Source: Catenuloplanes indicus (GTDB lineage Bacteria > Actinomycetota > Actinomycetes > Mycobacteriales > Micromonosporaceae). Taken from it: DNA of 64,000 nt. The stretch is taken from NCBI RefSeq assembly GCF_030813715.1, contig NZ_JAUSUZ010000001.1, forward strand, positions 2,480,001 to 2,544,000, written 5' to 3'. Positions 50,493-54,540 of this stretch are shown here, piece by piece. A program made the translations under genes and the position numbers. Each line of letters opens with the position of its first letter. Position 1 is the stretch's first letter. The notes beneath the pieces were generated by a model. That model was not told the origin of the DNA. It saw nothing but the letters and a program-made list of their open reading frames with translations, and did not search any database.

Positions 50493-51398
50493 CTACCGCA
50501 GGTTCGCCTCGGCGAGCAGCGTGGTGATCAACGGCTCCGGATCGGCCAGCTCGGCGGGCAGGCCGCGGGACGCGAACCAGGCCGCGACCACCCGGACGTC
50601 GCGGGCGAGGAAGTCACGGCCCTGCGGGTTCGCGATCACGTCCACGATCTGCGGCAGGTCGATCAGGACGAGCCGGCCGTCGTGCACCAGGATGTTGTAG
50701 GGCGACAGGTCGCCGTGCGCGAGCCCGCACCGGGCCAGCACGGTCAGCGCCTCGACCGCCTGCCGCCACAGGTCCAGCAGCTGGTCCGGGTCCGGGCGGG
50801 CCTGGGCCAGGCGCGGTGCGGCCCGGCCGTCGTCGTCGCCGAGGAACTCCAGCATCAGCTCGGTGCCGTACAGCTGCACCGGGTACGGCACGTGGATACC
50901 GCCCATGGTCCGGCCGATGTGCCAGAGCCGGGACAGCGCGGCGAACTCCGCGGCCGCCCACTGCCCGGCGATCACCTGCCGGCCGAACGAGGTGCGGTTC
51001 TCCATCGCGCGCATCTCGCGGGACCGGCGCACCCGGCGTCCCTCCAGGTAGCCGGCGTCGCGGTGGAACAGGCGGTGGTCGGCGTCCCGGTACCGCTTGA
51101 CGGCGAGCAGCACCGAGCGGTCCGTGCCGGGTACGCCGCGGCGGACCAGATGGACGTCGGCTTCTTTTCCGGTTTTCAGAATGCCGAGCTCGTCGTCGAC
51201 GGCCGCGTGCTCGGTGACCACCCACTCGGGGATCGGGTCGGGGCCGTGCTCGGCCGCCTCCCAGGTGGACCAGCGGTCGCCGGTGTCGGGGGTGTCGGCC
51301 TCGGCGACCGCTTTCCGGCGGGCGCCGCGGAACTTCAGATCGCGGGGCTCGTCGTCGTCGAACGTGCGACGGCCGCGCGGACGGGAACTATCGAACAC
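50493..51398 (-). CDS. RIO1-type serine/threonine protein kinase
   Basis: This 301-residue protein has an acidic N-terminal stretch and a RIO kinase core. It has the P-loop-like GILKTGKEADVHLVRR, the ATP-binding Lys in LAVKRYRD, the hinge LMLEFLGDDDG, the catalytic loop HGDLSPYNILV and the metal-binding LIDLPQIVD, which is the RIO form of the DFG motif. Bacterial RIO kinases are poorly known; eukaryotic relatives act in ribosome maturation. The start is a GTG behind GAGGAGA. A 42-codon ORF with a very strong ribosome binding site overlaps the start region. Confidence 0.93.
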   Translation of the reverse strand: MFDSSRPRGRRTFDDDEPRDLKFRGARRKAVAEADTPDTGDRWSTWEAAEHGPDPIPEWVVTEHAAVDDELGILKTGKEADVHLVRRGVPGTDRSVLLAVKRYRDADHRLFHRDAGYLEGRRVRRSREMRAMENRTSFGRQVIAGQWAAAEFAALSRLWHIGRTMGGIHVPYPVQLYGTELMLEFLGDDDGRAAPRLAQARPDPDQLLDLWRQAVEALTVLARCGLAHGDLSPYNILVHDGRLVLIDLPQIVDVIANPQGRDFLARDVRVVAAWFASRGLPAELADPEPLITTLLAEANLR

Positions 51399-52297: not shown

Positions 52298-52732
52298 CTA
52301 CCGGCGACGGCTGAAGGTCCGCCCACCGACCTGGACGAACACCATCCCGGGGGTACGCCGGACCGTCGGGATCCGGCGCGGCCGGGGCTCGTGCACGCCG
52401 TCGTAGCGCCACGCCGCCTCACGCCGGGCCAGTTCCTCCTCGGCCGCGGCGCCGCGCACGCCGCGGTCCCGGGCGAAGTCCCAGCCGTCCCGCAGCGCGC
52501 CGGTGGTCGGCCGGCCGTCCGCCCACTCCGCGAACGCGGTGGTCCACCCGGGGCCGTAGCCGGCGGCCAGCATCGGCCACGCCCGGGCGACCACACCGGC
52601 GCGCTTGCGCAGCAGCGCCGCGCGCGCCACGCCGACCAGCCGGGCGTCGAAGCCGGCCGGGACCGGTGCGCCGGCGGTCAGCGCGGCCACCAGCGCCTCC
52701 TGGCCGGCCGCGAGGTCTGGCCGGTCGCTCAT
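52298..52732 (-). CDS. SCO6045-like partner protein of the DUF692 enzyme
   Basis: This 144-residue protein begins DLAAGQEALVAALTAGAPVPAGFDARLVGVARAALLRKRAGVVARAWPML, a helical domain like those found next to MNIO enzymes. The C-terminal part ends in VHEPRPRRIPTVRRTPGMVFVQVGGRTFSRRR, which is very basic. Its start overlaps the DUF692 stop by 4 bp. By analogy with other MNIO systems it may present the substrate to the enzyme; this is inference. Confidence 0.8.
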   Translation of the reverse strand: MSDRPDLAAGQEALVAALTAGAPVPAGFDARLVGVARAALLRKRAGVVARAWPMLAAGYGPGWTTAFAEWADGRPTTGALRDGWDFARDRGVRGAAAEEELARREAAWRYDGVHEPRPRRIPTVRRTPGMVFVQVGGRTFSRRR

Positions 52733-53547
52733 CGGGTCGGGTCCGGGTATCCGGCAGCGGCCGCGATCGCGGACAGTTCCGCGGTCAGCTCGGCCGCCGG
52801 TGGGTAGTGGCCGTCCCGTTCCAGCATCAGTGCCGGTGGGCGGCAGCGCGCGGTCAGCTCGGTGATCAGGTCCAGCACCGGCTGCGGTGTCGCGGCCGTG
52901 TGCGTGTCGTGGTAGATGCCGTCCACGTCGTCGCCGCCGGCCACGTGGCAGTACGCGATCCGCTCCAGTGGCAGCCCGTCCAGCACCGCGACCGGGTCGG
53001 TGCCGCGGTTGCGCGCGTTCGCGTAGACGTTCGCGACGTCCAGCAGCAGCATCGCGTCCGACCGCTCGACGATCTCGGTGATGAACTGCGCCTCGGTCAG
53101 CTCCTCGTCCGGCCAGTCGAAGATCGCCGCGATCGGTTCCAGCGCGATCGGCACGGCGACGGCCGCGCGCACCCGCCGCACGTTCGCCACCACAGCGTCC
53201 ACCGCCTCCCGGGTACGCGGCAGCGGCAGCAGGTGACCGGCCTCCACGCCACCGGCCCGGACGAACGCGATGTGCTCGCTGACCAGCGGCGCGTCCAGCG
53301 CCTCGGCCGCGGCCGCGAACTGCGCCACCCGCTCCGGTTCGACCGGCGTGGCACCGCCCAGCGACAGCCGCACGCCGTGCGGGATAACGGTCACGCCGCG
53401 CTCGCGCAGCGTGGCGAGGCCCGGCGGGAGCGGGCCGGTGGCCGGCACGGTCTCCGCGATCACCTCGGTGAAGCGGAGACCGGGCAGCTCACCGACGAAT
53501 CCGGAGATCTCCGGGCGCCACCCGATACCCACGCCGTAGAACGTCAT
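52729..53547 (-). CDS. DUF692 multinuclear iron-dependent oxidase (MNIO) family
   Basis: This 272-residue TIM-barrel protein has the DUF692 metal-ligand pattern: His in VIPHGVRLSLGG, Glu and His in LVSEHIAFV, Glu in IALEPIAAIF, Asp and Asn in LLLDVANVYANARN, His in AYCHVAGG, Asp and His in YHDTHTAAT and Glu in LMLERDGHYP. MNIO enzymes such as MbnB, TglH and ChrH use two or three irons to modify cysteines in peptides. The neighbours, a membrane protein ending in Cys-Gly repeats and a partner protein, fit a peptide-modifying system. I start at the ATG at 53547, which overlaps the upstream stop. Confidence 0.92.
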   Translation of the reverse strand: MTFYGVGIGWRPEISGFVGELPGLRFTEVIAETVPATGPLPPGLATLRERGVTVIPHGVRLSLGGATPVEPERVAQFAAAAEALDAPLVSEHIAFVRAGGVEAGHLLPLPRTREAVDAVVANVRRVRAAVAVPIALEPIAAIFDWPDEELTEAQFITEIVERSDAMLLLDVANVYANARNRGTDPVAVLDGLPLERIAYCHVAGGDDVDGIYHDTHTAATPQPVLDLITELTARCRPPALMLERDGHYPPAAELTAELSAIAAAAGYPDPTR

Positions 53548-54485
53548 CCGCCGCAGCCTCCGCCGCCGCAGCCGCCACCGCCGCAGGAGCTGCCGCCGCC
53601 GTCCGAGCCGCCGCCGCTGTCCGAGCCGGACCAGGACGAGCCGGAGTCGCCGGACCAGCCGCTGCTGCCGGCCCCGGAGGCGGCGGCCTGCCGCTGGATC
53701 TCCGCCTCGGCGGCGAACGCGGCGTCGTACGTGTAGAGCGACGCGGTGCCCCAGAGCGCCACACCCATCGCGAGGCCGCTCATGCCGTACGTGCCCCAGG
53801 CCGGCGACTGCGCCGGCGACAGGTACTGGTACCGCGTGCGCATCCCGGCCAGCGCGTTCTTGCCGGCCCGGCTCATCCACGGCGTGCGCGAGCGGAGCAT
53901 CAGCGTCGTGATGCCGAGCGCCAGCACGATGATCATGAGGTACCAGACCGCGGCGCCGTTGATCAGGCCGGCCACGAGGCGCACCACGCCCAGCGCGACC
54001 AGCGCGGCGAGCAGCAGCGTGGTGTTGCGGTACGCCCGGCGGTCCTCCTCGGCGAGCGCGAGCCCGTACCGTTCCAGGTCGTCGCGCAGCCGGTCCAGCT
54101 CGCTCTTGACCTCCGATTTGTTCCGCACGCCGTACACCGTCGACGGGCCGCGCTGCAGCACCCGGTGGATCGCCGCGTCGAGCGGCGGCGCACCGTCCGG
54201 GAGCGGGGCGACCGGCACGAGCGTCTTGCCCGGCGCGGTGGCGATCAGGCCACCGGCGCGCAGCGCCGCGATCGAGGAGTAGACGGCGAGGTCCGACCCC
54301 CCGGTCAGGTACGCCGCCTGCGCGGCCGTCAGGTGATCCGTGCCGGGCACCTGCTTGCCGGCCGCGATGGTGTGCCGGCGGACCAGAACTGTCACGAGGG
54401 CGACGGCGATGGCACCCAGATACAGCGCGAGGAAGGTCGGGCCGGGGATTCCCCAGGTGTAGCCCGATGCCGCAAGCGTGTCCAT
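53544..54485 (-). CDS. TIGR04222 membrane protein with C-terminal Cys-Gly tail
   Basis: This 313-residue protein has an N-terminal membrane span (residues about 12-34), a soluble helical domain (residues about 40-150, with TAAQAAYLTGGSDLAVYSSIAALRAGGLI), a second pair of spans near residues 160-200 and a fourth near 243-262. The C-terminus is Ser/Gly-rich and ends in SSCGGGGCGGGGCGG, with three evenly spaced cysteines. This tail is the defining feature of TIGR04222 proteins. It is translationally coupled (ATGA) to the DUF692 gene, so the tail is a plausible substrate. The ATG at 54485 is supported by a CACAAT box 6 nt upstream. Confidence 0.9.
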   Translation of the reverse strand: MDTLAASGYTWGIPGPTFLALYLGAIAVALVTVLVRRHTIAAGKQVPGTDHLTAAQAAYLTGGSDLAVYSSIAALRAGGLIATAPGKTLVPVAPLPDGAPPLDAAIHRVLQRGPSTVYGVRNKSEVKSELDRLRDDLERYGLALAEEDRRAYRNTTLLLAALVALGVVRLVAGLINGAAVWYLMIIVLALGITTLMLRSRTPWMSRAGKNALAGMRTRYQYLSPAQSPAWGTYGMSGLAMGVALWGTASLYTYDAAFAAEAEIQRQAAASGAGSSGWSGDSGSSWSGSDSGGGSDGGGSSCGGGGCGGGGCGG

Positions 54486-54497: not shown

Positions 54498-54540
54498 CGC
54501 CACGCCCGCCAATGTCGATCTCCCCGGAACGGGCCAGGAT

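Follow-up and report, generated by a model that had tools for sequence, protein, structure and literature searches.

We propose that a three-gene operon of Catenuloplanes indicus encodes a protein-modification cassette, in which a DUF692 (MNIO) enzyme and its small partner would oxidise the cysteines in the C-terminal tail of a TIGR04222 membrane protein and so produce a thiooxazole-bearing, Cu(I)-binding tail, a reading to which we assign a probability of about 0.6. Its parts are not equally firm: to judge from sequence, the tail itself is likely to be modified; by analogy with known enzymes, 5-thiooxazole has about even odds as the product, and copper binding is a tentative role that falls somewhat short of this. 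The tail is taken as the MNIO target because of the association between enzyme and tail, the cysteine pattern, the presence of the partner, and the fusion of partner and MNIO. Together, these lines give the proposal good, though indirect, support, and they are opposed by the genomes of one genus with large genomes (g51, probably Streptomyces) in which the TIGR04222 protein beside the enzyme has no such tail. The DUF692 target proposed by the first-pass annotation is partly supported. Altogether, the observation is sound and its interpretation sensible; the latter is already published, its comparative support is now stronger, and its exceptions are clear.

In the window, i.e., the whole 64,000-nucleotide stretch of DNA that was analysed, the three genes lie on the minus strand in the order TIGR04222 membrane protein (53544..54485, 313 aa, the proposed substrate), DUF692/MNIO enzyme (52729..53547, 272 aa), and partner protein (52298..52732, 144 aa, PME-type 2-like). 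At both junctions, the upstream stop codon and the following start codon share an ATGA. This order and these overlaps, described by the first-pass annotation, were confirmed from the coordinates, and the identities of the first two products are backed by profile matches: NCBIfam TIGR04222 covers residues 21-250 of the membrane protein (142.1 bits against a curated cut-off of 43, E 2e-41), and PF05114 spans the entire enzyme (265 bits against a cut-off of 25, E 8.3e-79). The TIGR04222 gene starts at an ATG; an alternative TTG at 54512 would give 9 extra residues. The name "SCO6045-like" previously given to the partner is supported by no profile library searched; SCO6045, a candidate counterpart of the window enzyme, appears with values of 1.59 and 3.01 in a Streptomyces redox-signalling expression table (PMC4991794). 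The genome (9.25 Mb, two contigs) holds a single MNIO match. Judged by eye, the genes around the operon are TetR-, SDR-, and HAD-like and give no hint of a metal role; also by eye, an open reading frame at 50493-51398 on the minus strand looks like a RIO-type protein kinase.

Among NCBIfam models, BufB gave the enzyme its highest score (177 bits) and HvfB the second highest (163 bits), each short of its cut-off and ahead of ApyH (107), ChrH (60), and MbnB (22.8); the enzyme stays under all the NCBIfam equivalog cut-offs listed. We call it BufB-like and do not assign it as BufB, because its 177 bits do not reach the BufB (NF050167) equivalog cut-off of 310. The complete set of iron ligands claimed for it is borne out at the level of ligand-type residues, namely, H92, E137, D170, N173, H201, D214, H216, and E243, whose assignment as iron binders is putative. 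Across an alignment of 117 MNIOs, 96 to 99 of the 99 sequences outside g51 retain each of these residues (95 for H92), and the 18 g51 sequences retain them all. The iron- and O2-dependent oxidation of a peptide substrate that marks MNIOs is a putative activity of this enzyme.

The membrane protein ends in a disordered Ser/Gly/Cys tail (residues 274-313; 53547..53666, minus strand). Its AlphaFold2 model has a mean pLDDT of 85.9 and is disordered over residues 274-310, with pLDDT below 50. The C-terminus reads SSCGGGGCGGGGCGG, and the three evenly spaced cysteines noted at first reading are indeed present at residues 301, 306, and 311. We compared 83 homologue tails with 1000 shuffles, which preserve composition and not ancestry. 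Among the 343 tail cysteines with a next residue, 86% are followed by glycine (shuffle mean, 58.5%; maximum, 65.8%), and 56% of the cysteine-cysteine spacings are 5 or 6 residues (16% in shuffles). Cysteine stands third from the end (position -3) in 71 of the 83 tails, compared with a shuffle mean of 13 and a maximum of 23, and adjacent cysteine pairs are absent. Chance or composition as the origin of the tail is disfavoured by these shuffles and by the contrast in MNIO adjacency given below. The gene overlap is likewise excluded as the cause of the terminal CGG, since CGG survives in 12 of the 21 named loci (from the best 80 of 575, see below) that lack the 4-nt overlap. The 5-residue Cys-Gly unit of the window tail resembles the spacing of EGKCG repeats, whose cysteines are turned by MNIOs into copper-binding 5-thiooxazoles (PMC13097082, PMC13419390).

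Among 121 genomes of the window's family, 82 carry an MNIO and 85 a TIGR04222 match above the cut-off. We used 93 of the 94 listed MNIO places, omitting the second fragment of one gene, and 142 TIGR04222 places, omitting two fragments, rows below the cut-off or passing only with their neighbours, and unlisted matches. At 79 of the 93 MNIO places, a same-strand TIGR04222 gene lies no more than 4 kb away, and all 90 MNIO-adjacent TIGR04222 genes stand upstream of the MNIO; the other 52 of the 142 are non-adjacent. Tails were read for 85 of the 90 adjacent genes, five adjacent places being unread. At least two tail cysteines occur in 83/85 adjacent proteins versus 20/52 non-adjacent ones, and the tail ends in CGG in 71/85 versus 6/52; the two adjacent exceptions have one tail cysteine and none, respectively. 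With incomplete frames dropped, at least two tail cysteines are found in 83/85 versus 19/50 (Fisher, 3e-15), and in the 27 genomes with both kinds, the adjacent copy is richer in tail cysteines in 20, tied in 1, and poorer in 6 (sign test, 0.009). Because the survey rows are related species, these P values, like that of the phylum survey below, overstate independence. Most non-adjacent copies (47/52) sit in genomes with an MNIO, and 19 of these 47 have at least two tail cysteines; the five in MNIO-free genomes comprise four without tail cysteines and one with two.

Fourteen MNIO places lack an adjacent TIGR04222 gene; 12 were inspected, and the other two are at contig ends. In G058 and G112 (loci L116 and L117), the MNIO is flanked by a TetR-type gene on one side and an SDR gene on the other, and no TIGR04222 gene stands alongside; the partner is kept beside it where read. 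Genes of these two types border the window operon too, in a different order. Each of these two genomes has a second MNIO adjoined by a six-cysteine TIGR04222 protein. G058 also carries a distant TIGR04222 protein with four tail cysteines. Of the distant copies in G112, one is truncated where its contig stops and another has no tail cysteine. At two further places, small open reading frames lie directly upstream of the MNIO, one of 70 aa with 5 cysteines (L114:2673-2885) and one of 77 aa with 4 (L121:2749-2982, reverse strand); they are probably different peptide precursors belonging to other MNIO systems. Tandem TIGR04222 genes precede one MNIO at L249, L288, L312, G018, G052, G072, G100, and G109, and both copies have at least two tail cysteines, G018 excepted.

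Beyond the family, we examined named loci (the best 80 of 575 confirmed) from a scan with the MNIO alignment, which cover Micromonosporaceae, Actinomadura, Pseudonocardia, Nakamurella, Rhodococcus, and others. A same-strand TIGR04222 gene is found in 69 of these best 80. The 11 others comprise nine with almost no upstream sequence and two Rhodococcus loci. In each of these Rhodococcus genomes, three TIGR04222 matches lie ~6.7 kb from the MNIO, sharing its contig and strand, and the two read per genome have cysteine tails ending in CGG. In the 68 loci judged among the best 80, at least two tail cysteines are present in 67, an ATGA-type overlap in 47, and a CGG end in 56. Locus L260 (L260:3064-6117, Verrucosispora sioxanthis) was left out of the 68 because its TIGR04222 tail is frame-shifted, by a real change or a sequencing error.

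At the level of the phylum (396 Actinomycetota genomes, each at least 90% complete), TIGR04222 above the cut-off occurs in 26 genomes, MNIO in 30, and both in 25. The co-occurrence survey that the first-pass annotation had suggested as a check returned an association: MNIO is present in 25/26 genomes with TIGR04222 and in 5/370 without (Fisher, 1.4e-33). The tail tally first covered 26 of the 30 TIGR04222 places, and the remaining 4 were added afterwards along with another four to five weaker places; the weaker second MNIO matches in G414 and G453 were excluded from the partner and residue counts. Six genomes outside the family and g51 have the two genes side by side, and in every one of them an adjacent TIGR04222 copy carries at least three tail cysteines; one of the six, G379, carries a tail-less TIGR04222 copy as well.

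The chief evidence against a strict pairing of enzyme and tail comes from the g51 genomes (18 with MNIO). The adjacent TIGR04222 protein has a cysteine-rich tail in 5/15 genomes and none in 10/15, and two of the five have an additional tail-less copy. Thus, the expectation that the Cys-Gly tail is conserved wherever DUF692 is present agrees with 67/68 named loci and fails for these ten genomes. No decay of the MNIO was found in the tail-less genomes, the ligand-type residues being intact in 18/18. With an automatic gene caller and open reading frames of at least 50 aa, no same-strand cysteine-rich gene was found between the MNIO and the tail-less TIGR04222 gene; we discounted as spurious the small opposite-strand open reading frames with 4 to 5 cysteines in L222 and L229. 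Six of the ten tail-less genomes have no other TIGR04222 match above the cut-off, and the other four (L324, L325, L326, and L327) have a distant TIGR04222 protein with a Gly-rich tail and a single cysteine near the C-terminus, which is a possible target in trans. The ten tail-less proteins (L163, L164, L167, L170-L172, and L174-L177) have in common a CxxLC motif at the first membrane helix and at least one later cysteine.

Neither Pfam nor NCBIfam gave a match to the partner up to E 1, and a PDB sequence search with its profile was likewise empty up to that value; DUF2063 is weakly detected in 2/54 partner sequences (best E, 0.018). Its AlphaFold2 model (pLDDT 94.2) has five helices and three strands. 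Foldseek gave 58 matches, headed by MbnC of the MbnABC complex (TM 0.39, E 0.22, probability 0.57); none of the 58 was significant, and TglI and NGO1945 were absent from the 50 listed. The partner profile nevertheless matches all 80 named MNIO loci (the best 80 of 575 confirmed). At 120 MNIO survey places, the partner is downstream in 75, fused to the MNIO in 18, and not found in 24, some of which have short flanks or belong to other MNIO systems; the MNIO frame was unreadable at the other 3. In all 18 g51 genomes, MNIO and partner form one gene, a natural fusion that parallels the engineered HvfB-HvfC fusion, which is highly active (PMC13419390). As to the PME-type 2 class, for which a DUF2063/TglI-like fold is expected, the protein follows the MNIO and has no DUF2063 signature, and its fold match to MbnC is non-significant (E 0.22); taken together, the fold model, the weak DUF2063 signal, the position after the MNIO, and the fusion are consistent with a putative PME-type 2 protein.

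The fold of the membrane protein bears on where the tail would lie. A search of the PDB with its model gave no useful fold match (33 hits, best E 3.1). Over 52 homologues, three segments have estimated median insertion energies of -2.28, -1.45, and -1.95 and would insert well, and helix 4 (residues 230-245, a 16-residue helix in the model; 53751..53798, minus strand) is a marginal transmembrane segment with a median of +0.85 and 1.26 in the window protein. If helix 4 spans the membrane, an outside tail is favoured, because positive charge is concentrated after TM3 (6.25 K+R) and sparse after helix 4 (1.1 K+R versus 2.96 D+E). We found that TIGR04222 is homologous, at the level of sequence profiles, to DUF2207_C: hhalign of 52 against 4 sequences, the latter being DUF2207_C by Pfam, gave 97.4% probability and E 1.3e-11 over 207 columns. 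With an E limit of 1, Pfam DUF2207_C is also detected in 28/52 TIGR04222 homologues (best, 1.2e-4); the window protein gives E 0.038, under the cut-off. The DUF2207 helix matching helix 4 reads YAIAFGVEKEWVRRF in one member, is charged, and is unlikely to span the membrane. Therefore, the homology and this charged helix make the published extracytoplasmic assignment of the tail uncertain, with evidence for both sides of the membrane. None of the papers listed in our literature search mentions both TIGR04222 and DUF2207, and the main text of PMC12452194 has 0 occurrences of "DUF2207".

In the model that we favour, the coupled genes would allow substrate, enzyme, and partner to be made together, and MNIO and partner would act from the cytosol on cysteines in the repeated (S/G)-C-G-G units of the disordered tail. 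The product would most likely be a 5-thiooxazole, with four hydrogens lost per cysteine, a proposal made by analogy because the closest characterised enzymes are bufferin BufB and oxazolin HvfB. The modified tail could then serve as a membrane-tethered Cu(I) binder trapping excess copper or a similar soft metal. An unlikely variant keeps the tail in the cytosol: helix 4 would derive from the charged, non-membrane helix of DUF2207, the modified tail would be a membrane-anchored metal trap, and the soluble subdomain (residues 54-91; 54213..54326, minus strand), which is winged-helix-like only in its helix-helix-strand-strand order in the AlphaFold2 secondary structure and falls within the homology to DUF2207_C, would be a built-in recognition element replacing the truncated one of the short partner. 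Substrate and docking domain would then be one protein.

The tail-less g51 genomes also lend weight to the explanation that the MNIO modifies another protein, with TIGR04222 as a docking or export accessory whose tail has its own unmodified metal or redox role. An MNIO with intact ligand-type residues beside a tail-less TIGR04222 protein in 10/15 genomes is what this would predict, and the CxxLC pair that these ten proteins carry instead points the same way. However, an automatic gene caller found no same-strand cysteine-rich gene (at least 50 aa) between the two genes there, four of the ten genomes encode the one-cysteine Gly-rich TIGR04222 tail elsewhere, and in the window's family and the named loci the cysteine tail is tightly tied to MNIO adjacency; we regard another substrate as doubtful.

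A different product on the same cysteines, e.g., an oxazolone-thioamide, a TglH-like excision of the cysteine beta-carbon, or a crosslink, seems rather improbable to us. TglH acts on a C-terminal cysteine, and the window enzyme falls below every equivalog cut-off listed. MNIO chemistry is, moreover, diverse (PMC13097082). On the other side, the BufB and HvfB scores exceed those of ApyH, ChrH, and MbnB, and the Cys-Gly spacing of five matches that of the EGKCG repeats. Gly-rich tails on all four DUF2207 relatives read could even suggest that a GC-rich genome produced the Cys-Gly tail as neutral low-complexity sequence and that its gene neighbourhood is incidental; these four tails contain zero cysteines, and the non-random cysteine placement and the link to MNIO leave this scarcely credible. 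We thus retain modification of the tail cysteines by MNIO and partner as the preferred reading.

If the tail is modified, an MNIO would act on an integral membrane protein in a system frequent in the window's family (MNIO in 82/121 genomes) and also present in Actinomadura and others. If true, thiooxazole metal chelation would extend to bacteria that lack an outer membrane and from which a secreted peptide could escape. With the genomes that have no tail and the uncertainty over the side of the membrane, the published suggestion becomes directly testable.

Among known systems, methanobactin MbnB-MbnC likewise combines an MNIO with a partner, and MbnC is the top, non-significant fold match of our partner model; it differs in the low MbnB score and in the MbnB substrate, a short leader-core peptide. 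The DUF2207 membrane proteins share profile homology and, in the four members read, a Gly-rich tail, but unlike the window protein they have longer open frames (548-773 aa within the DNA read) and no tail cysteines. Bufferins and oxazolins/captophorins (BufB, HvfB, FonB) are closer, with the nearest NCBIfam MNIO models, a partner protein, and EGKCG peptides whose Cys-Gly units are 5 apart, as in the window tail. Most of their precursors, however, are small peptides exported by Sec, and their partners are of the DUF2063-RRE kind (PME-type 1). The window differs on both counts: its proposed substrate is a TIGR04222 membrane protein with several spans, and its partner is short and PME-type 2-like. 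The nearest likeness is to the clusters of Antoine et al. 2025 (PMC12452194), which have the same three gene types and the same Ser/Gly/Cys C-terminal region as proposed substrate, and to which the window adds one more locus. There, TIGR04222 accounts for 40% of more than 1,000 signal-peptide-less cysteine proteins ahead of MNIO genes; its Ser/Gly C-terminal regions with interspersed cysteines are proposed MNIO substrates, and it is linked to PME-type 2 partners, with one modelled example from Micromonospora matsumotoense. The same study reports MNIO to be absent from 490/1372 TIGR04222 genomes and more than a quarter of TIGR04222 proteins to be without C-proximal cysteines. Hence, the tail-as-substrate idea is already in print there as a hypothesis, and the "different use" of this chemistry, on a membrane protein and not a free peptide, stands as a hypothesis and is not new. 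What our study appears to add to that work is the tail-cysteine counts by adjacency, the cysteine pattern, and the homology to DUF2207.
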